Source: a virus
Reading direction: 5' to 3' (one strand)
DNA length: 64,000 nucleotides
Virus record (IMG/VR): IMGVR_UViG_3300029945_000001
Location: 144,375 to 208,374 of that record
Under the pieces are notes generated by a model. The model worked only from the letters and a program-made list of their open reading frames with translations. It had not been told where the DNA came from and made no database searches. The first letter of the stretch is position 1. Each line of letters opens with the position of its first letter. Made by a program: the position numbers and the translations under genes. Of the stretch, positions 17,687 to 58,045 are shown in pieces.

Positions 17687-17722
17687 ATTTGAAATAAAAA
17701 ATACATATATATTAATATGTAG

Positions 17723-17763
17723 AGAAGACTGGTTAAGAACGCGTCTTGATCAGTCTATTCTCT
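17723..17763 (+). terminator. Imperfect long hairpin after the fibre gene
   Basis: AGACTGGTTAAGA pairs with TCTTGATCAGTCT around a short loop, with G-T wobbles. It lies between the fibre stop and the GC-rich gene at 17793. It may be a terminator or a leader hairpin. Confidence 0.5.
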
Positions 17764-17792
17764 AAAATCCGTTAAAATTGGGAATTAAATAA

Positions 17793-19088
17793 ATGCACTT
17801 TGATATTTCCACGCTGACTGCTGACGCTTTGACTTCTGCTACCATGATTGGTACTCTTGTTTCGGAGTCCGCAGCCCCCCTCATCGACTGGGACAGCATG
17901 CGCAAGGAGATCGAATCCTGGCCGCTGGTCTCGGAGGTGCCGCAGGACAAGGACGTTCCGCAGCTGAACATGACTTCGATCACCGGCAAGACCTGCCGTG
18001 AGCTGGTCAAGGGCGGCATCAAGACCGAGAATTTCATCGCCATCATCAAGTCGATGCTGAATGTCCGCGCCCATGTCATGTCCTCGAACGCCGGCAAGGC
18101 CCAGACTCTTTATCCGACCGTGAACGAATATGGCGCCCGTGAAGTCGGCAATGTCATCGTCGTCGCCAACAAGCATGCCGGCAAGCCCCGGTCGATCAAC
18201 ATCAATCGCCAGGCTTATGACCATCCGAAGAATGCCAATGACGAGACCCGTGGTCGTCAGCGGCACGTCAGCTGCGTCGTCGAAGTCGGTGGCTATATCG
18301 GTTTCGCTTTCTACAACAAGTTCTCTCCGAACACCCTGATCCAGACTTTCTTCCAGGTCACGCATGTCATTCCGCTCGGCGGCGACAGCAAGCTGTTCGA
18401 AATCGGCATGACCCTGGTTCATGCGGCGTTCGCTTCGGCCGCCGACGGCAAGGTCCTGGCCACTCCTCTGGAAGATGATACTCCGCTGGCCAATCTGATC
18501 GATGCGATGCAGCGTCGTTTGGCCGTCGGTGCTCTTCAACTGGATTGGCCGCTGTACAGTCAGATCTTCGTTCCGCATTTCGGCCTGAAGAATGACACCG
18601 CCGCCGGCATCGCCAAGATCGATCATTGGAAGGATCTGCACTCCGACACCGTGACTGCCAATCTCGACAAGCCGGTCAGTGCCGACATCACCGACATTGA
18701 AATCGATCTGATGCACAATCTGGTCGAAGCGCGTGCCACCTCCACGCCGAAGACCGACGGCGATGGCAATGCCGTCTATGATGAAACTGCTCTGGTCATC
18801 AGCCATCACATGGACGACACCGGCAATACCATCCGTGCGATGATGACCCTGATCAACAACAACGAAACCATCTGGACCGGCGTCACCGACATCACGGCCA
18901 ACAACTTCGATCGTCCGGTCGGTGATGACATCACCTATCCGAGCGGCAAGTTGAAGGCGGCGGTTCTCGATCCGGCCCTGATTCTCGGCGCCACCACGTT
19001 CCAGCGTCTGAAGACCGACGTCATCAATCGTCAGGTCGAAGGAAAGCATCCTGTGGAGAACCCGACCATCCTGGGCATTCTGCGTTAA
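17793..19088 (+). CDS. GC-rich, probably abundant protein, unknown
   Basis: A 431-residue protein with strongly GC-rich codons and flanking hairpins on both sides, so a monocistronic unit. It has mixed alpha/beta composition, many Asp, His and Asn, and no transmembrane segment or signal peptide. The central region around residues 170-205 is hydrophobic and aromatic (GGYIGFAFYNKF, FFQVTHVIPLGG). It lies among virion genes, so a structural protein such as a tail tube or minor head protein is plausible, but I do not recognise the family. A long ORF on the opposite strand (17772-19100) is a codon-bias shadow. Confidence 0.75.
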   Translation: MHFDISTLTADALTSATMIGTLVSESAAPLIDWDSMRKEIESWPLVSEVPQDKDVPQLNMTSITGKTCRELVKGGIKTENFIAIIKSMLNVRAHVMSSNAGKAQTLYPTVNEYGAREVGNVIVVANKHAGKPRSININRQAYDHPKNANDETRGRQRHVSCVVEVGGYIGFAFYNKFSPNTLIQTFFQVTHVIPLGGDSKLFEIGMTLVHAAFASAADGKVLATPLEDDTPLANLIDAMQRRLAVGALQLDWPLYSQIFVPHFGLKNDTAAGIAKIDHWKDLHSDTVTANLDKPVSADITDIEIDLMHNLVEARATSTPKTDGDGNAVYDETALVISHHMDDTGNTIRAMMTLINNNETIWTGVTDITANNFDRPVGDDITYPSGKLKAAVLDPALILGATTFQRLKTDVINRQVEGKHPVENPTILGILR

Positions 19089-26308: not shown

Positions 26309-27034
26309 CTACTGCGTCGGGCCAAGGATCGTGCCCTTAGCTATCCAAGTCACATTTGAAATGCCGGTGATCGCATAACCGGGCGGGCCACCGTTCCCGC
26401 CGCCGTTGTATGATCCGACAGACCCGTTTTGGCCGTACGCACCGGGGGCTCCCCCAGCACCACTGGAACCAGCACCAGAGGTGCCGCCGCCCTGAGCGCC
26501 GCCACCTACCGACAGGGTTCCTGAATTGCCGGCGCCGTTATATCCGTTTGACGGACTCCATCCGGGAACTGCCCCTGCGCCGCCGCCACCGTTGCCGCCC
26601 CAGCCATAAGTCGTGTATTCACATCCGCCACCGCCACCACCACCACCGCCACTCTGGATCGTGCCTAAATTTGTGATTGTGATTTTCTGCAAGGTGGAAA
26701 TGGCAGGGCCACCGCTGCCACCGCTACCGCCACCGCCATCACCACCACCGCCACCGCCGCCCTGGCCGCCGGCACCTACAATATAAGCACCAACCATTAC
26801 ATTAAGAGAAATATTAGAACTAGCAGGAAAACTATTGATAGTTAGTGCATACGTACTTGTTGATATCGATCCGATAATTGCAGATGAAGCAATATTTAAT
26901 TTGACATTAATAGGATTTTTACCATTCCAACCATAATTAGTAGTAAGATCAGTATTTAATACGTAATTATAAATAGTTCCAGATAAATTTATTACTACTG
27001 ATTGTACAGAGCTGGCAGGATTGAGTATAAACAT
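26309..27034 (-). CDS. Glycine-rich tail adhesin with swapped C-terminal tip
   Basis: A 241-residue protein. The first 80 residues are beta-rich, Ser/Asn/Thr/Ile-rich and encoded by AT-rich DNA. From about residue 88 (GAYIVGAGGQ) onward it becomes extremely Gly-rich, with runs such as GGQGGGGGGGDGG, and GC-rich. It finishes with the non-Gly tail ITGISNVTWIAKG. Gly-rich segments of this kind form the receptor-binding tips of T2/S16 gp38-type adhesins (polyglycine II sandwich). The abrupt composition change inside the gene, and a second, related C-terminus downstream, point to a module exchange. Receptor binding is inferred from this resemblance. Confidence 0.7.
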   Translation of the reverse strand: MFILNPASSVQSVVINLSGTIYNYVLNTDLTTNYGWNGKNPINVKLNIASSAIIGSISTSTYALTINSFPASSNISLNVMVGAYIVGAGGQGGGGGGGDGGGGSGGSGGPAISTLQKITITNLGTIQSGGGGGGGGGCEYTTYGWGGNGGGGAGAVPGWSPSNGYNGAGNSGTLSVGGGAQGGGTSGAGSSGAGGAPGAYGQNGSVGSYNGGGNGGPPGYAITGISNVTWIAKGTILGPTQ

Positions 27035-37814: not shown

Positions 37815-39401
37815 ATGTCTAGTGTTTCCGGTTTTGGTACTCAGGAAAGCGATTCTCCCAAGGCTCCGCAGGGCGAAAAGCAGGCTCCTGGTTTCAGCAA
37901 TTCTCAGCAGGAAAAGAAGCGTTCTCTCCTGCACAGTTCATTGTCCGAATTTGACAGCTTCTCGACGCAGTCCCCGCAGCTATCGAAGTTCGTCGAGCGT
38001 ATGGAAAAGGAAATCCCCGGCGCCAAGGTCGTTCGCATCCCTGAGCCGTCCAACACTCTGGCGGTGATGGTCGACAACATGTTCTATGTTCTGCTGTTCC
38101 CCGACATGGGCGTTCAGTTCGGAACTCTTGAATTCAAGCGCAAGGCGTTCATCGCTTATTTCCCGAGCGTTCGCAAGCGCCTCGAAGCTGATTTCGCGAA
38201 TTGCACCATCATTCAGAATGCCATCGTCATTCCCGAAGACTACCAGAACGAAACTCGCGTCGGCGCCATCATCGCCCATCTGCGGTCTACGTTCTCGGCG
38301 AACAAGCCTGGCAATCTGGATGTCTACGGGTCGATCAGCTTCTTCAAGGGTTCGACCTTGACGATCTCGACGTCGTTGGCTGAAGTCCACAACTACTACG
38401 ATCGCCATTGGCCGTTCGTGACCAAGCCGCGTTTCGACTACGGCATCGTTGTCAGCTCTCCTGTTCGTGACGAACTGTCGGTCTCCAACAACGAACCGAC
38501 GGAACCGAAACAGCTGTTCGTCGTCGGCGGCTACACCAGCTTCGTTCGGACCAATCCTCCGAACAACTCATTGGCTCGCGAAAAGCTTCCGCATGTTCTG
38601 GCTCCGATCGTGCACATTTCTTCTGTGTTCTCGATCATGCCGATCAATGCCTTCGCTCCTCTCGCCATCGGCCTGGGTGGGTCGAAGTTCCTCTATGATG
38701 GTCTGTGGCTGTCGCCTTATACTTCATTCGAAAGCGGAAAGCCGAACCTCGGCCGCCTGATGCCGGATGTTCTGGACAACAGCCGCAATGAACTGATGTC
38801 GTGCGACAACATGGACGACGTTAAGCAGTTCGTCCAGATCGCCTGCTTGACTCCTGTTCTGGCTATCGATAACATCCCTGGCGTTCCGACGCTGTCCATG
38901 CTCAAGCTGTTCATGGACGATGGCAACAACAAGCGGGTCATCGATGCCTTCAGTGACTTTATGGGCAAGCCGTATGATGGCAATAGCGACATCTTTTCGG
39001 TCGCTTCGACGGTCATCACCGGCATCGTCAACTACCCTGACAGCCCGACCGATAGTCGCGTCGTCGACTATATGTCACTGGTCAGCGGTAAGGGATATCC
39101 TGCTGAGGAAATCTCGAACCTGCTGGACGTCTATGAGAACCAGCATTACCAGGCTTCGATTGTCGCCAAGCATTCGAAGTTCATTCCGCTGTCGTACAAC
39201 ATTGTCAGCATCCTGAAGCCGTCTTTTGTGCAGGCCCTGGTCAATGCTATCAACAACGGCGTGACCATCAAGCAGTCCAACAGCAATACCAGCAGCAGTA
39301 ACACCAACTGGCTGATCGATATGGCCAAGGGCTATAGCGAGGCTCGTCTGAGCATGGGTGCCAATACTGTCGAAGGTGGTCTCGGCGGCATGTACCTGTA
39401 A
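37815..39401 (+). CDS. GC-rich abundant protein; candidate phage-nucleus shell protein
   Basis: A 528-residue protein with GC-rich codons, a structured leader and its own terminator, so it is almost certainly made in quantity. The first 60 residues are disordered and polar (Ser, Gln, Lys). The core is mixed alpha/beta with strongly hydrophobic stretches (SSVFSIMPINAFAPLAIGLG near residue 275). The last 40 residues are Ser/Asn-rich, then end GGLGGMYL. It is immediately upstream of the RNAP beta' N-terminal gene. From memory, in phiKZ the nucleus-shell gene (gp54) also neighbours an RNAP-fragment gene (gp55). Size, tails and expression would fit chimallin, but I see no sequence motif that proves it. 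An abundant virion protein is the alternative. Confidence 0.75.
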   Translation: MSSVSGFGTQESDSPKAPQGEKQAPGFSNSQQEKKRSLLHSSLSEFDSFSTQSPQLSKFVERMEKEIPGAKVVRIPEPSNTLAVMVDNMFYVLLFPDMGVQFGTLEFKRKAFIAYFPSVRKRLEADFANCTIIQNAIVIPEDYQNETRVGAIIAHLRSTFSANKPGNLDVYGSISFFKGSTLTISTSLAEVHNYYDRHWPFVTKPRFDYGIVVSSPVRDELSVSNNEPTEPKQLFVVGGYTSFVRTNPPNNSLAREKLPHVLAPIVHISSVFSIMPINAFAPLAIGLGGSKFLYDGLWLSPYTSFESGKPNLGRLMPDVLDNSRNELMSCDNMDDVKQFVQIACLTPVLAIDNIPGVPTLSMLKLFMDDGNNKRVIDAFSDFMGKPYDGNSDIFSVASTVITGIVNYPDSPTDSRVVDYMSLVSGKGYPAEEISNLLDVYENQHYQASIVAKHSKFIPLSYNIVSILKPSFVQALVNAINNGVTIKQSNSNTSSSNTNWLIDMAKGYSEARLSMGANTVEGGLGGMYL

Positions 39402-39522: not shown

Positions 39523-39550
39523 ATTTTTGCATACATACAGAGGGGATCAA

Positions 39551-41394
39551 ATGCATATTAACAAACTCAATCCTGATGCTATTTTAAATTTAGAATCTAC
39601 ATCTACGTCTACTAAAGAGATCGTTAGACATGTTGGTTTTTGTAACTTAGAAGAATTATATGCTGGATCAAAAGAAGCTATTTGTTTAAATGAAATTCCT
39701 TTAGGAAATAAAGATTATGCACAACAGCGTAATCGTATGTTATTCTCAAGAAGTGGTGATTTGAGTTTTATTGCATCTTGTGAATGTGGGCATTATTTTG
39801 GTAATTATTATAAAGGACAAATTTGTAATATTTGTCACAGTGAAGTTATTGACGATTTCGCTGCTTATAACAAAATTCAACATAAAACTTGGTTATCTAT
39901 TCCACATGGTATCAAAGTACTTCATCCTATGTTTTATAAGCTTCTTACAAATTCTTGGTTAAAGAGTGGGTACCTAGAAGCAATTTTAAACCCTAATGCA
40001 CAATTACCTCCTGAATTAGAAATGCATATTGATGGACAAGGTTATGTTTATTTCTATGAAAATTTTGATAAGATCATAGATTACTTTGCACGTATCAATA
40101 GTGTTACAAGTAAGAAACCAATTACGAAAGATATTTTAGAAGTTATTGCAAAGAATAGAGATTTGGTCTTTACAAATAAGCTTCCTATTTTGTCTAGTGT
40201 TGTTCATTCTGTTACAAACGATGGAACACATGGTGGTCGTCAATTTGTTGATTCTGGATCTAAACTTATCCTTAATGCTGCTACTGATTTACAATGTATT
40301 TCAGATAGAGAAACAGTTCGAGTAAAAACATTATTGAAAACTATTTATGATGTTTATTCATCTTATATCAGTTATATCGATGAAATCATTAGTGATCGTA
40401 TTGGTGCAAAAAGATCTATTTTCAGAGGTCAGATTTTAGGGACTAGAACACACTTTTCTTTTAGAGGTGTTATTTGTCCACATGAAGATAAATATGATCA
40501 TTTGTACTTGCCATGGTCTATGGGTGTTAATACTTATAAAGATCACATTATTGGTAGATTAATTGATGATTACAAAATGGCTCCTGGAGATGCTGTTCTT
40601 AGACAACGTATCGCCTTGGTTGAATTTGATAAAGATATCAATGATATATTTATTAAACTTATTAACGATAGTCCATTTGAAGGATTACCAACGACATTTT
40701 GTAGACACCCTTGTTTAAAACGTGGCGGTGTTCAATTCTTGTATATTACTAAATTTAAAACAAACATACATGATAATACTATTAATATTGGTGTTCCTGT
40801 TAGTCATGTTACGAAGGACCCGAATGCAAAGTTAATTGGCCTACTTGAAAGTAATTTCAAGATAGAATTCTCCTTAATTGCGGGAAAACCTCGTTAAGCA
40901 TCATATACCAAACATCCCTCAGAAATGAGATATACAGGATGTGGCCAATCTAATCAATTGGGTATGGTAAAAACTATGATGATAGAGAAAGTCCGCAGCG
41001 AAGCTTCTACGGAACATCGGATGATGTGCTATGAAGAACGTTCAACGATCATGGGTTTATCACCCAGTAGACTCCCAAGTGGGAAAGAAATAGGAGATAC
41101 CCTACTCCAATTGGACAGGGTAAAGATATGATCTGGTCCACATAAAGATATGTGGCGGGTAGAACATACCGGGATATGAGAGAGATAACTTCAACGACAT
41201 ATCTGGACACAACGGACTTTGACGGAGATGAGATGACTGGTAATCCTATCTTTGAAAATGAAGCTGCTCGTAAGTTCAGTGTTCTGCATCCAGCAAATCG
41301 TATTCATAATACAAAATCATTTGGTATTGCATCTGGCGTATCTTTGACATATCCTGTTCTGTCTACATTAAGTGCATTCTTGTCTTCTGATTAG
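39551..41394 (+). CDS. RNA polymerase beta' subunit, N-terminal fragment (intron-split)
   Basis: This is the N-terminal part of the large catalytic subunit of the phage multisubunit RNA polymerase. The first exon has a zinc-binding region (CECGHYF near residue 77 and CNIC near 94), then RGQILGTRTHFSFRGVI, equivalent to the bacterial RxPLxGKxGRFR(Q)NLLGKRVDYSGR region, and a KRGGVQFLY region. It continues to about VSHVTKDPN. After a group I intron, the second exon supplies the metal-binding DFDGDEM motif and ends ASGVSLTYPVLSTLSAFLSSD. The mature protein would be about 480 residues. Without splicing, exon 1 reads on to a stop at 40897 and lacks the catalytic Asp triad. I chose the ATG at 39551, with GAGGGGATC upstream. 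Confidence 0.9.
40826..41214 (+). ncRNA. Self-splicing group I intron in the RNAP beta' gene
   Basis: The interval between the two exons contains the conserved group I core in order. The P element AATTGCGGGAAA is at 40876-40887, the Q element GTCCGCAGCGAAGC from 40991, the R element GTTCAACGATCA from 41040 and the S element AAGATATGATCTGGTCC from 41123. R and S form a perfect six-base P7 (GATCAT/ATGATC). Other hairpins fit P2 (TTGAAAGTAATTTCAA, 40845-40860), P9 (CCACAT...ATGTGG) and a GATATG/CATATC stem near the end. AAAGTT (40828-40833) can pair with the first exon-2 bases GACTTT, as P10 would. About 380-390 bases, with no homing endonuclease. The 5' site after T40825 and the 3' site after G41214 (or G41205) are my best estimates. 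Confidence 0.85.
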
Positions 41395-45190: not shown

Positions 45191-45820
45191 ATGTCTGACC
45201 AAAAAAGCTATGAGCAGAAGCCCTTCGAGCCGAAGCCTTACGATTTTTCTCGCCTGGTCAATCTGCGAGGATCGGATAACAAGGATGCTTCTCTGAATAT
45301 TGGCGTCTATAACGGCAACGCATCCTTGGCCGTCATGGTCAAGAATGTTCAGGGCGGTCCTGTGTTCAAGTGGAATCTGAGCCGCAATGCCATGGTGGTT
45401 CTGCGCAGCAAGTTTCGTAAGCTGCTGGTAGAGCAGCATCCCGAGACCCACGAGACGATCAATCTCACGATTTATGATGACAAAGAAAAGAAATTCATGC
45501 CCAACGGGTGTGTTGTCATCGGTCGGAATGACAAGAACGTCTGTTATATCGCTGTTAATGGCCAGAAGGCTGAGCGGTTGCGGTTCAACATTCGGGCCAG
45601 TCTGAACTTTGAACTTCAAACTCCTATGGATGAAGTCGGCCGTTCAAACATCGGTGTCGAAACCATCATCGAACAGCTTGGTGCCGACATTCCTTATGCT
45701 GTTCTTCTGACCAGCTATAAGCGCGAATTCGCCGGCCAGGGCGGTCGCCCCAATAATAATACTGGTGGTAGTGGTGGTTATCAGAAGAGTGTTCCTCAGG
45801 AAGATATCTTCGGCGGCTGA
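45191..45820 (+). CDS. Possible single-stranded DNA-binding protein (SSB-like)
   Basis: A 209-residue protein with GC-rich codons, so probably abundant. The N-terminus is polar; residues about 20-165 are beta-rich with basic and aromatic residues (SLNIGVYNGNASLAVMV, FKWNLSRNAMVVLRSKF, NLTIYDDKEKKFM). The C-terminus is a Gly/Asn-rich linker followed by the acidic tip VPQEDIFGG. An OB-like core, flexible Gly-rich tail and acidic-hydrophobic tip is the standard SSB arrangement (tip DDDIPF in bacteria). It follows recombination genes. The core was not matched to a family, so the call rests on architecture, composition and expression. Confidence 0.75.
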   Translation: MSDQKSYEQKPFEPKPYDFSRLVNLRGSDNKDASLNIGVYNGNASLAVMVKNVQGGPVFKWNLSRNAMVVLRSKFRKLLVEQHPETHETINLTIYDDKEKKFMPNGCVVIGRNDKNVCYIAVNGQKAERLRFNIRASLNFELQTPMDEVGRSNIGVETIIEQLGADIPYAVLLTSYKREFAGQGGRPNNNTGGSGGYQKSVPQEDIFGG

Positions 45821-45931: not shown

Positions 45932-47551
45932 ATGTTAAAGATTATAAAGATTATTACCGAAACTGACCGCCCTCAATCAGGTATTGCTAAACTTGTTCAT
46001 GACTTTGATATCAATAATTCCGACGACGATGTGACGTTTCATATAGGCGGTTCTTATAAAAAATTAGTCTCTTATGATAAGCAGAAAGAAAATCATTGGG
46101 ATGAGTTAATGCTTCCGGCGAATGCTTTTCTCGAATCTTTACCAGAAGAATTTCAACGAGAAGTATTATTGTTCTTTATTAAAGCTAATCAGATTATTTC
46201 GACAAACATGTATGATCAAAAATCTATGAATGTTTCCCTGGAGGTTATTGGGGATCTATTAATAGAATTGTCAAATTCTAAGAATTCGAATATGAGTCTT
46301 CCTACAAGGCTTATTACATTTGTTAAAGAATCCGGTATCCCTGTTCCTAATCTCGATAAAGCTATGACTGAGCCACACCATACAAATTCATTAACATTTA
46401 AATATGTAGATTATGTTAATGTTATTGCTATTTCTGTTTTATGTAAAATGATTTGTCCTATTTGGGGAGAAATCATTCATAAGACAACATCTTTCATTTC
46501 TTCTGATATGAAAGAAATTTATTGTATTAAGATTTTAGACAAGTTATTAAGAACTAGTGAATTGGATACTATTGATTCTAAGTTTACAAACTATTTGGAT
46601 AATATTATTAATCGTCGAGATAACAATGATAGAAGTAAGTTTACAGCTTCTATCAGCGGATATTCTCCTGTTCGTGTTCGTAAGTTTATTTATGCTACTA
46701 TGCTTGTTAAGAAACTCATTAATATTGATCTATTAAAAGATGATTCTGATGTTATGAAATATATCGATACTTGTACAAAGAGTTCTTTCTCTGCTTTAAG
46801 TATGACAGTTAATCGTGGCAACAATGTCATGAGTAGAACAGAACTTACAGAATCTAGTGGTGGTGATGAAGAGTCTAATACAACACACCTCGAACATAGT
46901 TCGAAGGTATCGCAAATACCTGCTGATATTCCGATCATTATTGAGTATGGTGTTAATTGTCATATTGAAGCTGTTTGTAAGAACTACAATATTTCTTTTG
47001 ATATGTTTAGGGATGCTGTTAACTATTATCGGAATAACATTGTACAAGTTAATAGCTTTAATACCACTATTGCTGGTTTGATCATCGGTCCTATTATCGG
47101 TGGTGCAAAAGGGTTACAATATCTTAATGCAGATACGTTCTGTAAACTCATTGTTGTAACTCAAATTTATTTAGCATTGAGTGGAAAATCTGCCCTTGTT
47201 AATTTGTTAACATGTAATACACCGAATGATAAGAAAGATAGTGCATTATCAACGGTTGGCAATCGTATTAATATGAGTTATAATCAAACAATTGAGTATA
47301 GAAATTGTATTGCATCGTTTCCTAATTCTATTGGTGATAATTCTTTTGTCAATGTTATTAATAGTCTTAAAGATTTTATTATTCTCTATGATCACAAATA
47401 TAATACTGCTCCTATGTTATTCAAATTAATCAATCAGGATATTGAAAATGGAGAAGATGTTTATTATGACGATGAAGTTGTTCGTGATATTTGTAGAATA
47501 ATTTTACAGGTCAGGAACTCTCAAATGCCTGAAGAAAAGATCGAAGAGTGA
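45932..47551 (+). CDS. Unknown protein, first gene of an early-type operon
   Basis: A 539-residue protein with many helices. A polar, low-complexity segment of about 45 residues near residue 300 (TESSGGDEESNTTHLEHSS) separates two domains. The second domain contains a Gly/Ile-rich stretch, IAGLIIGPIIGGAKGLQYL, near residue 385 that could be membrane-interacting or a buried helix. The acidic C-terminus ends MPEEKIEE. It sits behind a TATATTAC element with a CGAAAGGGGATT site. Its stop overlaps the GTG start of the next gene. No family is recognised. Confidence 0.65.
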   Translation: MLKIIKIITETDRPQSGIAKLVHDFDINNSDDDVTFHIGGSYKKLVSYDKQKENHWDELMLPANAFLESLPEEFQREVLLFFIKANQIISTNMYDQKSMNVSLEVIGDLLIELSNSKNSNMSLPTRLITFVKESGIPVPNLDKAMTEPHHTNSLTFKYVDYVNVIAISVLCKMICPIWGEIIHKTTSFISSDMKEIYCIKILDKLLRTSELDTIDSKFTNYLDNIINRRDNNDRSKFTASISGYSPVRVRKFIYATMLVKKLINIDLLKDDSDVMKYIDTCTKSSFSALSMTVNRGNNVMSRTELTESSGGDEESNTTHLEHSSKVSQIPADIPIIIEYGVNCHIEAVCKNYNISFDMFRDAVNYYRNNIVQVNSFNTTIAGLIIGPIIGGAKGLQYLNADTFCKLIVVTQIYLALSGKSALVNLLTCNTPNDKKDSALSTVGNRINMSYNQTIEYRNCIASFPNSIGDNSFVNVINSLKDFIILYDHKYNTAPMLFKLINQDIENGEDVYYDDEVVRDICRIILQVRNSQMPEEKIEE

Positions 47552-48687
47552 GTAGTATTATAAATTATATTTCTTTAGATCGAGATAGAAGTGTCCTCAC
47601 GGGCACTTCTTTCGGTTATACGAGAATGATAAGTGGATTTTATCAACCTACTATTGTTGGAGACCCATTAGAAATTGAAGCTGATCAAAATATAACATAT
47701 CCTAGTTTTATAAAATTAATAGAGTATGAATATCAATGTGGTAAAGCTTTTATCATTGAAAGACTGTGTTTTAAAGATGATAAGATGTACTATCCGTATC
47801 ATGTTAGTTTTCATGATATTGAAGAAGGTTCACATTCAAATGACTATATCTTTGTTAACCATATTAATAATATTCATAAATCAATAACAAATACAAAGTT
47901 TAAACATAATACTCCACTTAGAGCATTTTGTAATAAACTTGATAGTAATTCATATCAGATAGAAAATCAATATATGAAATATTCAGATTTTTATAATACT
48001 GTAAGCCAGACGTTTTATGATACGACTGCATTAACGAACTTTTTATATACAGAAAAACGTAATAAGAGACCTATTATGGATGATTATAATTGGTATATAT
48101 TTCCTAAAGTTCCTATAAGTGATACATTAAGTAATATTGCATTAACAGAACCTTTAACATTAGATCATTTTAAACAGAATGCTAATTATGGATTGGATAT
48201 GTCAGAGCTTCATAAATTTGATTTATACGACATCAGTAACAAAATGAATATTATTGTTAATGATAAACAATTTGACGATATCTTTATGATGTTTATATCT
48301 TTGAAAAGGGCATATACTGATTTGCATTATAACTATATATTACTTAATGGTAACGTATTTGTAGATGATAATCACGATAGCATTTGTATCGATAGACTTA
48401 ATAGAAAGTATCCTTTTAGAAATGCATATGGTCCTAAAGATGTACTTTCAGTAATTGTAAAAAAATTACTTAAGTATGCACAACACAATATCGATATCGC
48501 TAATAACATTAGTTGTTCTTTTATGAATAATCCATTATGTAAAATAAAAATTTGTATTCATATGACGTTTAACGACGAAGCTGTAATTATAGTTTATAAT
48601 GAAGAGAATGTACGTGATTGGTTTTGTATTTATTTTGATTTAGCTTTATTGTTATTGACAAGCTCTAATTTCATTCGAACCGTCTAA
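47548..48687 (+). CDS. Unknown protein, second gene of the early-type operon
   Basis: A 379-residue Tyr/Asp/Asn-rich protein with a GTG start that overlaps the previous stop by four bases. It has mixed strands and helices without long hydrophobic segments, and Cys residues are scattered (for example NNISCSFMNNPLCKIKICIHM near the end). The C-terminus is hydrophobic (FCIYFDLALLLLTSSNF). No family is recognised. Confidence 0.6.
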   Translation: MSSIINYISLDRDRSVLTGTSFGYTRMISGFYQPTIVGDPLEIEADQNITYPSFIKLIEYEYQCGKAFIIERLCFKDDKMYYPYHVSFHDIEEGSHSNDYIFVNHINNIHKSITNTKFKHNTPLRAFCNKLDSNSYQIENQYMKYSDFYNTVSQTFYDTTALTNFLYTEKRNKRPIMDDYNWYIFPKVPISDTLSNIALTEPLTLDHFKQNANYGLDMSELHKFDLYDISNKMNIIVNDKQFDDIFMMFISLKRAYTDLHYNYILLNGNVFVDDNHDSICIDRLNRKYPFRNAYGPKDVLSVIVKKLLKYAQHNIDIANNISCSFMNNPLCKIKICIHMTFNDEAVIIVYNEENVRDWFCIYFDLALLLLTSSNFIRTV

Positions 48688-48706: not shown

Positions 48707-50347
48707 ATGGCTAACTTTATTGGTAATGATTATGAATTGAATAATAAAGGCATGTTTGAAAATAAATTTAATAATGACAAGAAAGTTGTTATTTATATAT
48801 TCTCCCCTCGTAATTTTACTGATCAATGTATACGTCCTATGACATATGAAATTAATCGTGGTGTTCTTGGACAAGTTCAAGAGTGCATGAGCGATGCCGT
48901 TCATCAATGTAATGAAAATCTTGTTTTGAAATTAGCTGATGATATTAATGTTCAGGGAGCCATCAAATCACAATGGTCTCCTGATCGTATTGTTAAAGCC
49001 AGTGAGTTCAGTCATGAAACTGGCTGGACTTTTCTTATGTATATTGATAATCTTCCTATTTATAATAGCAGTGGTATTCAGATGCAATGTGCAAATAGTC
49101 GAACTATCTATTTTGGACGATTTAGTGACGAACCTATGAATCTGCATGGTACCATCAATCCCGATACTGTCATGATTATTCTTCATAAAACTGGCGTTAC
49201 TGCACAACGATATGGTGATAAAGATCTTATTGGTCTCCAAAATGATACTGATATTATCCACGGAAATACTTTACAGTTCTTATCTGATCGCGATTCGTAT
49301 TTGATGCGTCCTGAAGAATTAAGCAATGTTACCGATTTGACGAATAATACTTCTGTTACAATGATTACTGAAATGAATAAGCTTGGTAATCAAGGTGAAG
49401 CTATTATTACAAATACTAGTTTAAAAACACCATCTCAAAATATGGGTCATATTCTTCGCGGTATTGCTAAAACTAAGATTGATGCTCGTAGTCCTAATAA
49501 TGGGATGATGCATTCTGATTTGTTACAAGAATCTTATTTTGATAGTCTTACAAACAATTTACGAGATGTTAGTTTTGGATCTTCCATTCTTGATCTCGAT
49601 AGTTGTATTTCATTAGGTGATTTTGTTAGTCGATTTGACCCTAAAATTATTGATTTCAATGTTGGTAATGGATTTAACCAAAGAGATCAAAGTGTTGCAT
49701 GTGCTTCGAATGCAGCTAGCTCTATGTTGGCACAGGTCATTCCTGTTGTTATGACACAGTATATGATTGCAAATGTTGGTTTTGTTTACAATAGCTTTTA
49801 TGATAAACAACAATTAAATGTTGGCGGACGAGCCCTTGAAGTTACCCAGGGTACTCTTGGATATCTTGTCCCCAACCTTGATGAAGATACTAAAGCTCGT
49901 AATTTTCAATATTTTATTCGTGATCTTACAAATGGTATTTTTAAAGTTCTTGAATTTCAACGTGGTGATTTTGAACTAAGTGCAAGTGTCTGTTTTGCTG
50001 GTTTAACGCATATTAACTTTCATTATCTTTGCGACAATGAACGATATCGTGAAAACTATGAAGTTCCAACTATTCTTGGTGGTATGATTTCTCCGCTTAT
50101 TGGATCTGGTGATGCGATTGGATATAACAGTAGAAATTTGAGTACCTTATTAGGTATTGGTATTGGTGATGATACTCGTCCTCTTCTTGGTATGGATGAT
50201 GGTCCTTCTGAGATGCAGAAGCTTTTTGGTGCTATCGACGAAGGACGTAAGAATAAGAATTTTGGATCTATTGGTAACGGAAATAGTTTTATAAATAATA
50301 ACAGCAACATCTTTAAAAGCAATAACGACGATGATCTTATTTTATAA
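48707..50347 (+). CDS. Unknown protein with Asn-rich FG-containing tail
   Basis: A 546-residue protein with an ordered N-terminal domain (about 1-180), a linker, and a second domain around residues 290-455 that contains ACASNAASSMLAQVIPVVMT and GGRALEVTQGTLGYLVPNL. The last 60 residues are polar and disordered with KLFGAIDEG, KNFGSIGNG and an Asn-run ending in DDDLIL. The tail is a short relative of the FG-rich tail of the next gene. A good CTTGGAGGGACG site precedes the ATG. The family is not recognised; the C-terminal Asp-rich end may mediate protein interaction. Confidence 0.65.
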   Translation: MANFIGNDYELNNKGMFENKFNNDKKVVIYIFSPRNFTDQCIRPMTYEINRGVLGQVQECMSDAVHQCNENLVLKLADDINVQGAIKSQWSPDRIVKASEFSHETGWTFLMYIDNLPIYNSSGIQMQCANSRTIYFGRFSDEPMNLHGTINPDTVMIILHKTGVTAQRYGDKDLIGLQNDTDIIHGNTLQFLSDRDSYLMRPEELSNVTDLTNNTSVTMITEMNKLGNQGEAIITNTSLKTPSQNMGHILRGIAKTKIDARSPNNGMMHSDLLQESYFDSLTNNLRDVSFGSSILDLDSCISLGDFVSRFDPKIIDFNVGNGFNQRDQSVACASNAASSMLAQVIPVVMTQYMIANVGFVYNSFYDKQQLNVGGRALEVTQGTLGYLVPNLDEDTKARNFQYFIRDLTNGIFKVLEFQRGDFELSASVCFAGLTHINFHYLCDNERYRENYEVPTILGGMISPLIGSGDAIGYNSRNLSTLLGIGIGDDTRPLLGMDDGPSEMQKLFGAIDEGRKNKNFGSIGNGNSFINNNSNIFKSNNDDDLIL

Positions 50348-50432: not shown

Positions 50433-51725
50433 ATGACAGCTGACATTGTTATGGTTAAAACCCATGATGTTACGAATTGTCTTAGATATTTAATTAACTT
50501 ATCTGCGCCTGTTTATTCTACTGATGATGATGGTTATGTTATCGATTCTAATGATAATCGTATAAAGATTACTTCTGGTAAGGATGAGAAACGCCATGTA
50601 TTATTATTCCAAGAAGTCTTTAATGATCAAGAAGCACTCATGCTTAACCCGTTTGCTGAGCTCACCACTGATCATCCTGCTAATCGTTTCTTCTATAGAA
50701 CTGTTCGTGGCGGCGCTGTTGGTTGGATTCAATTTGCTTATCGCGAGCTTATCAAAGTAGCTGTTAAAGCTAAAGATAAATCTGAAAAGACTATTCCTAC
50801 AAAATTAATTAATCTTGTTAGTGGTATTGTTGACAAGGTCGATGAAAAGACTCTTGTTGAATTTGATAAAATTCTTAAGAATGAAACTGATATGTTTGTT
50901 GATGTTATGTATCGCGATAAAACTATGATGTGTACTTTGAATGTTCGTCTTTTAAATAGTAAGCAAGAACTCATTGATGCTTATAAAGAAAAGTTCAATG
51001 TCCGTAAGGGTACTTGGGCAGTTCTTATGTATCTTACTGAAAAGATCTTTGATATTAAGACTATTGATGAACTTGAAGAAAAGTATTATGTAAAGCCTGA
51101 ATTCGATGGTCCAGTTGCTCCGTGTCCTCGAATGATTTCTACTGTTCATTTATTGTACAAAATCTATGATAAGATCAATCCTATTATTGATATGGTTGAT
51201 GGTATTTATACTAAGAATATGTCACAGTTTGCCATTCATGTTAATAATCTTCCCAAGTATATTAAAATTGCTAGTAGTGTTGCACAAGATGCAAATAAGA
51301 TCAATTCTTCTGTTGCTAGAATTGTCCAGAAGCCTGCTCAACAGCAACAGAGTACTGGAAATTCAATGTTTGGTAATTTAACAAAATCAAATAGTCTCTT
51401 TGGTGATAATTTAAGTACACCTAAGAATGCATATACTGAACATCTGTTTGGTTCTGGATTTGGTAGCACTGGTTCATTTGCTAATTTGAATAATCAATCT
51501 AATCAGAATGGTGGTGGTATGTTTGGAGCCATGTTTGGTGGTGGTAGTTCATTTGGGAATAATAATAATAATAATAATAACTTTGGTTCTAATCAGAGTA
51601 GTAATTTTGGTAGTTTCAATATCGAAAAACCGATGCCATTAAATCGCGCCCCTATGGCTGGAGAAGGATCGAATTTTGGGAGTAATTCGTTTGGCGGAAC
51701 TCCCGGAATGCCAAATATCCTATAA
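50433..51725 (+). CDS. Protein with nucleoporin-like FG-repeat tail
   Basis: A 430-residue protein. Residues 1-300 form a mostly helical, Lys-rich ordered domain (for example GAVGWIQFAYRELIKVAVK near 90). From about residue 305 the chain is Asn/Gly/Ser/Gln-rich and low-complexity. It contains 11 Phe-Gly dipeptides spaced by polar linkers (MFGNL, SLFGDN, LFGSGFG, MFGAMFGGGSSFG, NNFGSN, SNFGSF, NSFGG) and a run of eight Asn encoded by AAT repeats. Such spacing is typical of FG-nucleoporins and other phase-separating proteins in eukaryotes; here function is unknown. It is the last gene of the unit, followed by a strong terminator. AAGGGGACT precedes the ATG. Confidence 0.75.
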   Translation: MTADIVMVKTHDVTNCLRYLINLSAPVYSTDDDGYVIDSNDNRIKITSGKDEKRHVLLFQEVFNDQEALMLNPFAELTTDHPANRFFYRTVRGGAVGWIQFAYRELIKVAVKAKDKSEKTIPTKLINLVSGIVDKVDEKTLVEFDKILKNETDMFVDVMYRDKTMMCTLNVRLLNSKQELIDAYKEKFNVRKGTWAVLMYLTEKIFDIKTIDELEEKYYVKPEFDGPVAPCPRMISTVHLLYKIYDKINPIIDMVDGIYTKNMSQFAIHVNNLPKYIKIASSVAQDANKINSSVARIVQKPAQQQQSTGNSMFGNLTKSNSLFGDNLSTPKNAYTEHLFGSGFGSTGSFANLNNQSNQNGGGMFGAMFGGGSSFGNNNNNNNNFGSNQSSNFGSFNIEKPMPLNRAPMAGEGSNFGSNSFGGTPGMPNIL

Positions 51726-51735
51726 GGCCAATGAG

Positions 51736-51764
51736 ATATAAGGAGGGTGTTGCCCTCCTTATAT
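51736..51764 (+). terminator. Hairpin with 12-base arms and T-run
   Basis: ATATAAGGAGGG pairs exactly with its complement around TGTTG, followed by TTTTTTA: a classical intrinsic terminator. Confidence 0.9.
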
Positions 51765-51784
51765 TTTTTAAAGGATAAGTCATA

Positions 51785-52933
51785 ATGACAGAACCAAAAG
51801 ATAGAGTTAGTTCTGTAGAAACATTTCATGGTTATGTTGCAGAAGATAAAGATAAAGATAGTGTAATTATAAAAGTATATATTCCAGAATTACAACCAAT
51901 GCAAACTGGTGCTATCGATGCTAAGAATTCTAGCGCAAATATTGCGGTTATGGATGCTTCTGGTAAATCTATAACTTTTAATACAACAACATCAAATAAT
52001 ATTTCTGCTACGTATGAAGGTGATGGTAATCATAAATATCCTCCTGATGTTATGAAAGGCGAACAGGTTACTGTTAGAAGAGTAAGTTCTGATAAATTTA
52101 CTTGGTCTTGTGATGGTCGAGATAAATACCTACGGAAAAATGAAACACTAAGAATAGAAATAGCAAATAGGCAGGGCGAAGATGATCTCGATGATACAAA
52201 TACTTATTTGATTGAATTAGATACAAAAAGAGGAAAACATTTTAGAATATCATTGGCTAATAGTGATGGTGAATTTACATCTTATAAATTAGAAGTAGAT
52301 ATGGATAATGCTACTGCTTATTTTGGAGATATATTGGGAAATACAGTGTGTATTGATAGTAATAAACCACAAGTTGTTTTAACAAACTCCGATGACTGTA
52401 TGATAAACTTACAAGGAAAAAATGGGCAAATCATTATACCAGAAACATTGCTCATTTCAGCTGGTAAAAATATGATTTTAAATTCCCCACTACTAAGTAT
52501 TGCAAATACTTCTGGAGATGGTATATTTGAAATCGCCTCTAATTTTGTTAACTTTACTGTTACAAATTCAACTGTTTTTAATAGTCCTTGTTTTGGCGTA
52601 ACTGGTTCATCTAAATTCATCGGACAGATGGTTGCTTCTGCTATTAGAGCTGCAAGTTATAATTCTGGAGATCCAGGATCTCAATATAAAGCTTCATCCA
52701 TCTCATCTGGGTTAGATGGTAGTTGGAGTGGGACTGCGAATGGTAACTCTCCAGATAATGGAACTGGTGATGGTGAACGACATACTGCTGCTTATGAAGA
52801 TATGGTGAAAACTATAAATACAGTTATTGAATGTTTTAATCAGGTTCAGGGCGTTATTGGCGTTCCTTCTTCGCAAGGACAGCTAGCTGGAGAAGTTGCA
52901 GCATCTATTATGCCATTGAATATGGGAGAATAA
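51785..52933 (+). CDS. Central baseplate spike protein, gp5/gpV-like
   Basis: A 382-residue protein. Residues about 10-100 look like the OB-fold of gp5/gpV/VgrG spikes (VETFHGYVAE ... VIIKVYIPELQ ... KYPPDVMKGEQVTVRRVSSDKFTW). Residues about 130-290 are short regular beta strands, many ending in Asn or Asp (IRIEIANRQ, CMINLQGKNGQIIIPE, MILNSPLLSIANTSG), as in the beta-helix of membrane-piercing spikes. The C-terminus is Ser/Gly-rich then helical. No lysozyme domain is seen. It probably sits on the gp27-like hub encoded at 34126. It is the first gene after the FG operon terminator. Confidence 0.65.
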   Translation: MTEPKDRVSSVETFHGYVAEDKDKDSVIIKVYIPELQPMQTGAIDAKNSSANIAVMDASGKSITFNTTTSNNISATYEGDGNHKYPPDVMKGEQVTVRRVSSDKFTWSCDGRDKYLRKNETLRIEIANRQGEDDLDDTNTYLIELDTKRGKHFRISLANSDGEFTSYKLEVDMDNATAYFGDILGNTVCIDSNKPQVVLTNSDDCMINLQGKNGQIIIPETLLISAGKNMILNSPLLSIANTSGDGIFEIASNFVNFTVTNSTVFNSPCFGVTGSSKFIGQMVASAIRAASYNSGDPGSQYKASSISSGLDGSWSGTANGNSPDNGTGDGERHTAAYEDMVKTINTVIECFNQVQGVIGVPSSQGQLAGEVAASIMPLNMGE

Positions 52934-53477: not shown

Positions 53478-53828
53478 TTACAATGTTGTTTTAACCAAAG
53501 ATGTTTTATATAAATTAAATACAGTCCTTAAGTATTCAATAGTTGGAACATACATAAATTTAATATCTTTAAATTGTTCATCTCCATGAAGATCATTTAT
53601 CTCTCTAATGACGTATTCTAAATCTAAACTAATACCAACATATTTCATATAGTCTTTCAATCTATATTGATATGTTGCCATAATGTCATATGTCAATGTA
53701 TATATTTTAGAATTTTTAATAAATAGATTTTTATAATCTTTTACAAATTGTATCCAACCTGCATCAGTATTGCTATATTTTGAAATAACTGAACTTCTTA
53801 ATATACTGGATAATGTGGTTGAAGCCAT
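53478..53828 (-). CDS. Small Tyr-rich protein, possibly a virion component
   Basis: A 116-residue, alpha/beta protein rich in Tyr and Leu with ASTTLSSILRSSVISKY at the N-terminus and GWIQFVKDYKNLF near residue 24. The composition and size would fit a tail-terminator or baseplate wedge protein, but no family is recognised. A GGAGGGTTTG site precedes the ATG. It stands alone on the minus strand between two plus-strand units. Confidence 0.6.
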   Translation of the reverse strand: MASTTLSSILRSSVISKYSNTDAGWIQFVKDYKNLFIKNSKIYTLTYDIMATYQYRLKDYMKYVGISLDLEYVIREINDLHGDEQFKDIKFMYVPTIEYLRTVFNLYKTSLVKTTL

Positions 53829-53971: not shown

Positions 53972-56062
53972 GTGTCAAAGTTACAAATCGCCGAAGAGTT
54001 TCCGAGTTTAGATAATGTTAGTGTTGATAGTCGTATTCTTGGATTACAGCCTGGTTTATATCCTCATTTAAAGAATAGTTCTGGTCAGCGCACTGATATG
54101 CACGGTTCGCATGTCAATCAAACTATTTTAGTTGATGGTAGTCAATTTGCATTTCAATTTACTGGTAAAGAATATGACTTTGGACAATTTGATATTAATG
54201 ATACTCATAGAGAACAAGATATGATTATTCTTGCTGTTGTTCAAAAGTATCCTAACATCAATTATATTCAGCAGGCACATACAGTTATCTGTAAGGGTCT
54301 CGATGATTGTAAAATCCATCACTTTATTGTTAGTCCATATACTAAAGTTGCTGATGGTTTTGGTTATGAAAATGTTTTAAGCAATAGACATTCTCTTCGA
54401 GCTGGTGAAGTCCTTTTAAAAGAAACTGTTCTCTCAAGATCTCCTATTAATAAAGATGGTGCTTACTGTATGGGTCGTAATGTTAATGTTGCATATATGA
54501 CATCTCCCCATATCATTGAAGATTCCATGTGGATCTCCGATGAATTAGCAGATAACTTAAGTTCTAGTGCTATCTATAAACAGATTTTTGTAATCGGAAG
54601 TAATAACATCCCGATTAATCTTTATGGTGATGATGTTAACTATAAATTCCTTCCTGATCTTGGTGAAACTATTTCTGATTATGGTATTATTTCTGCATTT
54701 AGAAAAACAACACCAGAAACATTTATTGCAGATACAATGCCTAATGAATTAACAAAACCTCAGGCTATGCATGATATGTGTTATGTTGCACATAAAGGCG
54801 CTAAAGTTATCGATATCGATGTTCAGATTTCTCGCGGTGCTAAAATCTCTGGCAAGTGGTATGACCAGGCTAAGAAGTATTCTGATAGTCATATTAAATA
54901 CTGTGAAGAAATTGTTAAGGTTTATGAGACGAATCGTAACTTAGAATGCTCAAGTGCTTTTAATAGATTAGTTTCTGATTGTATGAAACGATTAATTGCT
55001 GAAGGTAGACGAGTTAAAAATATCTATACAAAATGCAAGCTTGGTATTATTGGTAGGAATAATCGTCCTATCGAATTTATGAGAATTGTCGTTACATATA
55101 TTGAAAAACGCCATATGTCCTTTGGATATAAAACTACTGGTCGTGAAGGTGCGAAAGGTGTTATTGGACATATTGTTCCAAAGAGCTGTATGCCTGTTGA
55201 TGAAGATGGATTTGTTGCTGATCTTGTTTTAGATCCTGCATCTTGTATTGCACGCATGAATACAGGACAATGGATAGAACAAGGTATTAATCGTATTTCT
55301 GAATTTGTTAGACGAAGAGCTGTTGAGCTATATAAGACAGATAAACAATCAGCAATCGATATGTTATTTGAGTATTATAATGATCTTAATCCTAATTATC
55401 TAAAACAAGTTATTGCAACGAATCCAGATTTTAAAAGTCAGTGTGTGCATTTTGGAAGAAGTACTAGTGATGAAGGTGGTATTTATATTTGGTTGCCTCC
55501 GTTCTTAAAACACATTACTATGAAACATTTTGATTTCTTAAGAAAGAAGTATAAAGTTGGTATTTCTAAAGCATCTTATAAACGCGTTGATAGCGATGGC
55601 AATATCATTGCTGAGTTCGTATCGGATAAACCTGTTTGTATTGGTTCTAAGTATGTTATCGCGCTTTGTAAAGTTCCTTATCAGACAGCACCTGGTGTTG
55701 GTCATGTTAATCAATTTGGCGTTCCTATGAAGTCATCTAATCCTAATATTAAAAATCAATATACGGTTCGTATTAGTGCATTGAAATATGGCGAAGATGA
55801 ATGGCGAACTGTTGGTATGGATATGGGCGAAGATGCAAATGAAATGATTCGTTATACGAGCCTACATGCAAACAGTCCTACTGGTGTTAATGTTCTAGTT
55901 ACTGATATTTTAAAGAATAAGAATCCTACAAATATTGAACGTATCAATATTACTAATGAAGAACTTGTTAAGAAGAATAGTGTCTTAAATTTGTTCAGTC
56001 ACATGATTACAACTTTAGGTATTAAGATTGAATCTGAACTTAAAGAGGTTATTAGCCCATGA
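53972..56062 (+). CDS. RNA polymerase beta subunit, C-terminal fragment
   Basis: A 696-residue protein covering the catalytic C-terminal half of the RNAP beta subunit. GRNVNVAYMTSPHIIEDSMW near residues 168-187 corresponds to bacterial LGRN(V/L)xVAYMxWxGxNFEDSI. The GYKTTGREGAKGVIGHIVP segment near 385-404 corresponds to KLAGRHGNKGVIS, followed by MPVDEDG and ARMNTGQWIEQ (MPxxxDGxxxDxxLNPLGVPSRMNxGQxxE). It starts with GTG (AGGGGTAG upstream) and overlaps the beta' C-terminal gene by four bases, so the two subunits are cotranslated. The beta N-terminal fragment is not in this window. It is likely part of the non-virion enzyme given the early-type promoter, but that is inference. Confidence 0.92.
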   Translation: MSKLQIAEEFPSLDNVSVDSRILGLQPGLYPHLKNSSGQRTDMHGSHVNQTILVDGSQFAFQFTGKEYDFGQFDINDTHREQDMIILAVVQKYPNINYIQQAHTVICKGLDDCKIHHFIVSPYTKVADGFGYENVLSNRHSLRAGEVLLKETVLSRSPINKDGAYCMGRNVNVAYMTSPHIIEDSMWISDELADNLSSSAIYKQIFVIGSNNIPINLYGDDVNYKFLPDLGETISDYGIISAFRKTTPETFIADTMPNELTKPQAMHDMCYVAHKGAKVIDIDVQISRGAKISGKWYDQAKKYSDSHIKYCEEIVKVYETNRNLECSSAFNRLVSDCMKRLIAEGRRVKNIYTKCKLGIIGRNNRPIEFMRIVVTYIEKRHMSFGYKTTGREGAKGVIGHIVPKSCMPVDEDGFVADLVLDPASCIARMNTGQWIEQGINRISEFVRRRAVELYKTDKQSAIDMLFEYYNDLNPNYLKQVIATNPDFKSQCVHFGRSTSDEGGIYIWLPPFLKHITMKHFDFLRKKYKVGISKASYKRVDSDGNIIAEFVSDKPVCIGSKYVIALCKVPYQTAPGVGHVNQFGVPMKSSNPNIKNQYTVRISALKYGEDEWRTVGMDMGEDANEMIRYTSLHANSPTGVNVLVTDILKNKNPTNIERINITNEELVKKNSVLNLFSHMITTLGIKIESELKEVISP
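55127..55206 (+). repeat. RNAP beta segment duplicated in the 805-residue gene (copy 2)
   Basis: The source copy of the 80-base segment also found at 6741-6820, in the conserved GREGAKGVIGH region. The first 24 bases are identical between the copies. Confidence 0.8.
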
Positions 56063-58017
56063 TCAAGTTTGATGTTTTTAATACAAAGATAGATTTTGAT
56101 TTAACGAAACAGTTATTAGCTAATAAGAATGAAATTTTCCTTGTGGATCTTGAAGATGGTCCATTGGAAATATCTGGAAAGTTCTTAATGTTAAATGTTT
56201 GGTTTTGGAAAATTCTTGTTGATAGAAATGTCCGTCCTTCTAGAAAACATTGTTTATTAGAAAAAATAATCACTAAAGAAAATCAGACTGCTGTATTAAC
56301 ACATATTGAGAATACTATTCGTGAAAGAAATCCTAATTATATTAACGAGTATGTAAAAGATAAATTAGGAAATGATCTTAAGTATTTAACACTAAATGAT
56401 GATATTTGTATGTGTGATAATAATATTCATCGTATGGTGTCATGGCAACTTGGTTCTTACGAAATGTCTTGCTCTGCATTTGAAATATGTGATATGTTAT
56501 TCGATCAAGAATATGATCAGCATAGAAAGTATGATATTAAGAAAGAAGAACGTCTTGGTATTAAACATGTAGAGAAAAGAATAGCCAATCAAATAGATAC
56601 TTTTATTAAAGAGATTAGTGATAACGACACTATTCTTTCTATTCCTCTTAAAGTTGGTTCTATGAGTAAGAAACAGATTGGTCAGGTTTTTGTTGGTATT
56701 GGATATCGTACCGATGCTGACGATACTATTGTTATGCGTCCTATTACTGAAAATTACTTAGATGGTTTAAACAGCACACACTCTTATTTAACAGAAAGTC
56801 TTGCTGGCAAGAAGACAATCTATTACAATAAGGATGCTATGCCGGATAGCCAATATAGTAATCGCAGACAACAGATTCAGAGTTCTATTATCCAAAAGTT
56901 ATATGCTGGTGATTGTGGAACAGATCGTTTTATCCAAGTATATATCCATGCTGGTATTGCTAGTAAAGGACAAATGGATGGTAAATTGATTTATGAAAAT
57001 GGTGTTCTCACTATGATCAATAGAGAAAACGTCTCTAATTTTTATGGTAAATATGTTAACATGCGTTCTCCATTTACATGTAATCACACCAATGGTACAT
57101 GTGCGGTATGTCTTGGTGCATTGGCAGCACAATTCTTACCCTCTACAAATATTGGTTTAGAAGCTGCACAAAACTATATGAGTGATGCATCACAACTTGT
57201 GTTGAGTGCAAAACACTTTACGAATACCGATGCTGTTCTCTATGGTATTCCTCCGCAAATGAAAGAATATCTATTTATTAGACAAAATGATATTTATCTT
57301 AGAGAAGAATTTAATATCAAACCAGTTAAGGTTGGTATACCTTTTATTAATATGAAGAATATAAATGATCTTAATAGTATTAAGAATGATAAGTTTATTC
57401 ACGAACAACATTTTAGTAGTATTACAGAAATGCTCTTTATACGCGGAGATACTGGTGAACTTGTATCACAATATGCAACAATGCCAATGAACAATATTAT
57501 CCCGTTCTTCTCATTAGAATTCTTGAAATACATTAAAGCTAATATCCATCGTTGTACTATTGACAATATGATTTGGATTCCTCTTGATGAGTTTAATGCA
57601 GCTGAATATCCGATTATGAGATATACCATTGAGAGTAGTAGTATGGTTAAATTTAATAACAGTTTGAGCAATTTTATGCTCAGTGGTGTTGCTTCATATA
57701 CCTCTATTTCTGATGTCTTACGAGATTTTAGTGAACTTGTTTATAAACAAATTACAACCAATTTTGCTCATATCGAAATCGTCCTCAAATCTTATCTTAA
57801 AACATCTAAAGATAATTATAGAATTCCAATTATTCGAGATCCGAATAATGTCATGTTCGATAGTCTTGGTCGTAATATTCCAAGACGATCTATTGGTGCA
57901 CAATTTGCATATGAAAAACAAATGGCATATCTTACAAATCCTAAGACTTATCTTGAAGACAAACCTCCTGGATTTTTCGATACATTCATGGGTCTTACAG
58001 TTGGTCTTAGTCTCTGA
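56059..58017 (+). CDS. RNA polymerase beta' subunit, C-terminal fragment
   Basis: A 652-residue protein. TCNHTNGTCAVCLGALAA near residues 340-357 matches the beta' zinc-binding cysteine cluster (CxxxxGVCxxCYG). It is followed by IGLEAAQNYMSDASQLVLSAKHF, equivalent to bacterial IGEAVGxIAAQSIGEPGTQLTMRTFH of the trigger-loop region. The N-terminus corresponds to the region after the DFDGD fragment encoded at 39.5-41.4 kb, 15 kb away. The gene overlaps beta by four bases (ATGA) and ends at a hairpin with a T run. There are no obvious sigma-like or clamp additions. Confidence 0.92.
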   Translation: MIKFDVFNTKIDFDLTKQLLANKNEIFLVDLEDGPLEISGKFLMLNVWFWKILVDRNVRPSRKHCLLEKIITKENQTAVLTHIENTIRERNPNYINEYVKDKLGNDLKYLTLNDDICMCDNNIHRMVSWQLGSYEMSCSAFEICDMLFDQEYDQHRKYDIKKEERLGIKHVEKRIANQIDTFIKEISDNDTILSIPLKVGSMSKKQIGQVFVGIGYRTDADDTIVMRPITENYLDGLNSTHSYLTESLAGKKTIYYNKDAMPDSQYSNRRQQIQSSIIQKLYAGDCGTDRFIQVYIHAGIASKGQMDGKLIYENGVLTMINRENVSNFYGKYVNMRSPFTCNHTNGTCAVCLGALAAQFLPSTNIGLEAAQNYMSDASQLVLSAKHFTNTDAVLYGIPPQMKEYLFIRQNDIYLREEFNIKPVKVGIPFINMKNINDLNSIKNDKFIHEQHFSSITEMLFIRGDTGELVSQYATMPMNNIIPFFSLEFLKYIKANIHRCTIDNMIWIPLDEFNAAEYPIMRYTIESSSMVKFNNSLSNFMLSGVASYTSISDVLRDFSELVYKQITTNFAHIEIVLKSYLKTSKDNYRIPIIRDPNNVMFDSLGRNIPRRSIGAQFAYEKQMAYLTNPKTYLEDKPPGFFDTFMGLTVGLSL

Positions 58018-58023
58018 TTATTG

Positions 58024-58045
58024 ACAAGGGATGGTCCAGACGGAC
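58024..58045 (+). terminator. Hairpin then T-run after RNAP genes
   Basis: An inverted repeat (ACAAGGGATGGTCC with the complement GGACCATCCCTTGT) is interrupted by a four-base AGAC loop and followed by TTTATTTTT. The whole stem spans about 58024-58045. Confidence 0.8.

Follow-up and report, generated by a model that had tools for sequence, protein, structure and literature searches.

Does a phage protein with a Phe-Gly (FG) rich tail serve at the shell of a phage nucleus as FG-nucleoporins do at the nuclear barrier? The question is raised by an open reading frame (ORF) at 50433-51725 (+) of the window, a 64,000-nucleotide stretch of virus record IMGVR_UViG_3300029945_000001, which codes for a protein of 430 aa. 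In the initial annotation of the window, eleven FG dipeptides in about 120 residues were described in a tail that follows an ordered domain, and it was suggested that, if this phage builds a nucleus-like compartment, such tails could act in selective import or phase separation at the shell. Here we find that the FG tail is a real and unusual feature and that this earlier reading of it is partly correct: the protein is a variant of a known family of shell proteins, and no member of the nucleoporin family.

The FG-rich tail

The protein is made up of an N-terminal gp70-family domain, predicted to be folded on the basis of homology and a helical model (aa 1-300; 50433..51332, +), and a low-complexity tail rich in Asn, Gly, Ser and Phe (aa 303-430; 51339..51722, +). 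The eleven FG dipeptides, borne out by our count, start at residues 313, 323, 339, 343, 364, 368, 374, 384, 392, 415, and 420 (aa 313-421; 51369..51695, +), at a spacing of 4-23 residues. Within residues 304-430, 11 of 13 Phe have Gly next, and few residues are charged (D/E/K/R at 8 of 127). When this segment was subjected to 200,000 composition-preserving shuffles, the number of FG averaged 2.35 (sd 1.32) with a maximum of 9; pairing of Phe with Gly is non-random and far above the expectation from tail composition. The next FG-densest ORF of at least 100 aa in the 208-kb record has 4 FG per 120 residues. A tandem array was not found in the DNA of the FG-coding region; the one exception is a short run of poly-Asn codons, (AAT)7.7, between 51558 and 51580. 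The gene is base-for-base identical on three other metagenome contigs, and is therefore no assembly error.

That a disordered tail follows an ordered domain is supported by an AlphaFold2 model, in which the N-terminal part is helical with low to moderate confidence (pLDDT mostly 50-75) and no secondary structure is present past residue 298 (pLDDT about 25-32); many FG motifs are present within the disordered polar stretch. The shorter FG/Asn tail ascribed to the product of the upstream gene is also there, but is modest, consisting of an Asn-rich C-terminus that carries two FG (residues 507 and 519). Right after the FG gene lies a terminator-like hairpin (51733..51767, +; -23 kcal/mol, z -5.15) followed by U-rich sequence, which would close a gp68-gp70 unit. 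Rfam returned no match anywhere in the window.

Proteins of biased composition occur elsewhere in this phage. A 241-aa protein encoded at 26312-27034 (-) of the window has a very Gly-rich stretch, whose entropy is lower than that of any other 80-residue window in the record. A second FG/Asn/Gly-rich protein, encoded at record positions 56404-58038 (17404-19038 of locus L189), carries MVSFGNGGGFGQ followed by nine Asn, and NSFGGGGNSFGN...SSNFG; its flavour resembles that of the gp70 tail, and no relative of it was found.

A divergent gp70 homologue in a putative nucleus-forming phage

The phage very likely builds a nucleus, because it encodes a protein of chimallin fold, PhuZ, and PicA. The first of these, encoded at 37815..39401 (+) upstream of gp55, is a putative divergent chimallin (ChmA, the nuclear shell protein). 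No window ORF, 37815 included, matches the ChmA HMM; by hhalign, 37815 is the top match to ChmA among window ORFs (421 columns, E 0.0013; the best among 100 shuffles reached E 0.022). When the ChmA alignment was enlarged and made more diverse, its score fell to E 0.02, while the match still spanned the full length. Its model (pTM 0.62) matches nine PDB structures of chimallin (E 6e-15 to 6e-13, TM about 0.55) and no non-chimallin PDB structure better than E 0.05; given that ChmA homologues were in the alignment of the model, these matches are support and no independent proof of chimallin. PhuZ is encoded at record positions 106637-107686 (phrog_4733, 1.3e-29). The gene directly upstream of the FG gene (48707..50347, +) codes for a homologue of the nuclear import factor PicA/Imp1 (phiKZ gp69), which is recognised through phrog_3141, to which phiKZ gp69 belongs (E 3e-5), and by hhalign (Prob 96, E 4e-9). 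PicA is essential for nuclear import, forms a punctum on the shell, and is kept in every phage known to encode ChmA (PMC11087766). The window phage also has a multisubunit nvRNAP and a homologue of ChmC (phiKZ gp67; 45191..45820, +; phrog_3284, 2.7e-5). The premise that this phage is a nucleus builder is therefore borne out by the ChmA fold, PhuZ, PicA, and the ChmC family, and the 37815 product, which had been named for a pull-down with the FG protein, has the predicted fold of chimallin.

The window region is collinear with phiKZ genes 54-75. It runs from the nvRNAP subunit gp55 (39527..40897, +; phrog_2987, 1.4e-60) through gp59 (41407), gp64 (42484), SbcD gp65 (43052), gp66 (44246), gp67/ChmC (45191), the nvRNAP subunit or sigma-like factor gp68 (45932..47551, +; phrog_3209, 2e-25; hhalign 98.7), gp69/PicA (48707), the FG gene (50433), a small reverse gene (53478..53828, -; phrog_3455, 6.9e-5) that lies between gp70 and RNAP beta in most isolates, and the nvRNAP beta subunit gp71-73 (53972..56062, +; phrog_3295, 1.3e-114) to gp74 (56059) and the helicase gp75 (58113). 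The order gp68-gp69-gp70-(reverse gene)-RNAP beta is conserved, and gp70 directly follows picA in phiKZ, 16 other isolates, and 25 IMG/VR loci. In the window, two additional genes follow the FG gene before this order resumes with the reverse gene and RNAP beta.

The family of the FG protein was reached solely via gene order and profile-profile comparison, the latter taking in every window ORF of at least 140 aa. Nothing was found by tblastn, blastn, or pattern searches, there was no direct PHROG match, including to phrog_3520 (the gp70 family), and the gp70-type model, itself of low confidence, had no structural relative in a viral library searched with Foldseek. When compared by hhalign with 17 gp70 homologues, the ORF aligned over residues 40-308 (255 columns) with Prob 91.6 and E 8.1e-7, while every other window ORF of this size scored Prob < 1. 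With alignments of gp68, gp69, and gp70, the ORFs at 45932, 48707, and 50433 scored Prob 98.7, 96.0, and 91.6, respectively, and any other window ORF at most 5.8. With gene order and domain plan in accord with the profile-profile result, we assign the product of 50433..51725 (+) to the phiKZ gp70 / PhiPA3 gp64 family as a very divergent member. It shares with this family (PhiPA3 gp64, phiKZ gp70, 201phi2-1 gp126; phrog_3520) the place right after PicA, a similar length (433 aa in the family against 430 aa), the profile match of the N-domain, a disordered low-complexity C-terminal tail, and a hydrophobic C-terminus that matches that of PicA. It differs in being ~17% identical to its nearest relatives and in having an FG/Asn-rich tail, not one of the Q/M/P, W-G, Y-P, or R-D type.

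PhiPA3 gp64, which is listed as the homologue of phiKZ NP_803636.1 (gp70), is an early-expressed protein that was picked up by proximity labelling, was seen at the nuclear shell, and came down with ChmB; mass spectrometry of virions did not report it (PMC10643120). A table of strong phiKZ ASO hits does not list gp70, and the reviews consulted do not name it as an import factor. The initial placement of the FG gene in an early operon stands by homology, the relative being early, and by gene order; it has no promoter basis.

Several peculiarities of the locus were also observed. The gp55 homologue looks split, in that a small ORF (41152-41394) found 254 bases further on matches the last 58 positions of the gp55 family; an intron family was not found by Rfam. 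A 379-aa gene with no recognisable relative (47548-48687) lies between gp68 and picA, unlike in the other phages examined, where these two genes are adjacent. A baseplate gene of the phiKZ gp164 family (51785-52933) lies between gp70 and RNAP beta, while in phiKZ, RAY, and others examined it is found elsewhere, adjoining SbcC; its synteny, tried as a route to the FG gene, was misleading, as in other phages it leads to places without gp70. The ChmC homologues of loci L011 and L017-L032 have a common acidic-aromatic C-terminus (for example FDNDIPW, FDDIDF, and FDEDMPSF) that the ChmC-like protein of the window, ending in EDIFGG, does not have.

Tails and C-termini across the gp70 family

Among 58 non-redundant gp70 proteins, compositional entropy is 4.0-4.2 bits in the domain and 3.1-3.9 bits in the tail (4.1 and 3.6, respectively, in the window protein), and a low-complexity tail is found in all but L186, which ends soon after the domain. 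Tail flavours include Q/M/P in phiKZ relatives, Y-P-Q, W-G, L-G in SPFM17, and, in three or four distant groups, R/D-rich tails; regular aromatic motifs (WG, YPQQ, GYP) recur in several lineages. At the level of sequence, a disordered low-complexity tail of changing composition is an established, conserved trait of gp70. The FG/Asn tail itself is confined to the window protein, whose 11 FG compare with 4, 2, and at most 1 in the 57 others. Conservation of FG spacing across homologues, set beforehand as a test of the FG proposal, thus fails, as no other gp70 exceeds 4 FG, and the FG type is specific to the window lineage among the gp70 proteins sampled.

A motif, [GS]-hydrophobic-x-D-F-x-x-[LVM]...P, was observed 70-115 residues from the C-terminus in many gp70 tails (for example FLC9, L055, L068, L161, and PhiPA3), with a score of 746 against a shuffled maximum of 533; it is weak or absent in the window protein. 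We also considered homotypic tail-tail co-evolution of gp70 and ChmA. The partial correlation (r 0.40 overall; 0.30 among clade representatives, P 0.013) disappears without the R/D-rich phages, and homotypic contact is therefore not generally supported. R/D-rich gp70 tails do go with R/D-rich ChmA termini (r about 0.85 for R and D), a pairing confined to FLC8, ParM25, KpLz2, and L178-L181.

The extreme C-terminus of gp70 follows that of PicA. Endings were surveyed in 57 phages across loci L011, L017-L032, L052-L076, and L157-L186, and the last three residues of the two proteins co-vary across phages (n=40, z 7.1). PicA and gp70 end, respectively, in DLF and DLF in JM2012, GLL and GLL in PhiPA3, FGF and FGF in L071, and, in the window, Leu-Ile-Leu (50336..50344, +) and Asn-Ile-Leu (51714..51722, +). 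Co-variation was spotted by eye in a first set (n 23; statistic 3.83 against -1.44, 0 of 5,000 shuffles), and an added set, whose loci had not been inspected for it earlier, is significant when taken alone (P 0.006). The signal is limited to positions -1, -2, and -3, and a register shift of one residue abolishes it. The C-termini of gp68 and ChmA, used as controls, gave no co-variation match, and the ChmC C-terminus, likewise examined, does not match that of PicA or that of gp70. Co-variation persists when pairwise identity of gp70 domains is below 30% (n about 11, P at most 0.005); at a limit of 27% (n about 8), significance is lost in a minority of draws. Since endings are mismatched in some phages (for example SPFM17, pEtSU, and the R/D-tailed group), co-variation is a strong tendency and no rule. 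Its simplest reading is that a single pocket may read both C-termini, with a specificity that shifts over time. PicA and the FG protein have in common neighbouring genes, a co-varying C-terminal tripeptide, and, in this phage, an Asn/FG-bearing tail, while their folded domains differ and PicA is the one known as an essential importer.

Possible roles of the tail

We consider it moderately probable that the FG protein is the gp70 homologue of a nucleus-forming jumbo phage that acts early and at the shell by means of a folded domain, a tether tail, and a PicA-like hook. Shell location and early timing are drawn from what is published for its relative PhiPA3 gp64, and the protein is probably found at the shell, within the PicA import site or next to it. 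It would be made early, alongside chimallin and PicA, and its folded N-terminal domain would bind the shell or its partners. The disordered tail of 130 residues would form a flexible, weakly sticky tether or brush, with FG as the sticker used by this lineage, and the C-terminal hook NIL would share its specificity with LIL of PicA, such that the same or an equivalent pocket holds both. By inference, the tail of gp70 would work at the import site as a brush or tether, and gp70 itself would be kept next to PicA through its hook. Several observations weigh against this reading: no direct sequence search reached the family, the gp70-type model is of low confidence, and gp70 is missing from the tabulated strong ASO hits in phiKZ and from the import factors named in the reviews.

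A doubtful alternative is a near-neutral flexible linker, in which length, disorder, and hook are selected while composition drifts with the genome. FG would then have no specific role and would be a product of drift and of local expansion, the genome being A+T-rich and rich in Asn/Gly/Phe. The change of gp70 tail composition from phage to phage, the GC content of 32%, the AAT-codon poly-Asn run, which suggests slippage, and the presence of another Asn/FG/Gly-rich protein in the same genome are all consistent with it. However, FG pairing exceeds by far what the tail's own composition would give, and WG, YPQQ, and GYP motifs appear in several lineages, as in sticker-and-spacer designs.

Returning to the shell-bound tether with a PicA-like hook, its extension to a general role of gp70 tails as the permeability medium of the import site, a disordered, aromatic-sticker brush with a PicA-type hook that would have evolved separately from the eukaryotic FG barrier and converged on FG here, appears unlikely. 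We regard as improbable the proposal that the protein is a functional analogue of FG-nucleoporins, forming a cohesive selective barrier whose FG would be bound by pockets of PicA or cargo. The resemblance is considerable: as in FG-nucleoporins (e.g. yeast GLFG), FG is repeated at a spacing of 4-23 residues with polar, low-charge linkers, disorder is predicted, and the protein is presumed to sit at a nuclear barrier. Its number and spacing of FG, its low charge, and its N/Q/S/G content recall cohesive FG domains, and the gene adjoins PicA, which itself has an Asn/FG tail, in a family located at the shell. Unlike FG-nucleoporins, the window protein has neither homology to them nor a nuclear pore scaffold domain, its FG are absent in orthologues, and it offers a single short domain with 11 FG. 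Attractive as it is, the proposal draws on a single lineage, no karyopherin-like receptor came to light in an analysis directed at other genes, and Pfam PF13634 (Nucleoporin_FG) matches the tail only at E 0.63 (11.4 bits; cut-off 32.2); judged by its sequence, the FG protein is no nucleoporin homologue.

We find it similarly hard to favour an accessory role in nvRNAP function or mRNA handling, with the tail as the scaffold of a transcription or mRNA condensate. Genes for gp68 and RNAP beta are invariant neighbours, and prion-like Q/N/Y tails and R/D tails are found in RNA condensate proteins. Against this, PhiPA3 gp64 is at the shell, unlike RNAP, which is inside the nucleus, and the gp70 C-terminus co-varies with that of PicA and not with that of gp68. 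A structural linker of the virion, a role to which the baseplate gene next downstream might point, is very improbable, because PhiPA3 gp64 is shell-localised and early and none of the family was detected in virions (PMC10643120), and also because the baseplate gene is a newcomer here, lying beside SbcC in phiKZ, RAY, and others, and is separated from the FG gene by the terminator.

No paper tying FG repeats to the phage nucleus was found in a search outside which most subscription papers lay, and novelty is unproven. Our data show that in almost all of the phages sampled the conserved neighbour of PicA has a low-complexity tail, that in one lineage this tail is of the FG type, and that its C-terminal three-residue signature co-varies with that of PicA. 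These findings give testable predictions on partners at the import site and may exemplify convergence of phage nuclei with eukaryotic ones. While PicA is already known, the tail of gp70 may bear on what forms the passage of folded proteins across the chimallin shell.
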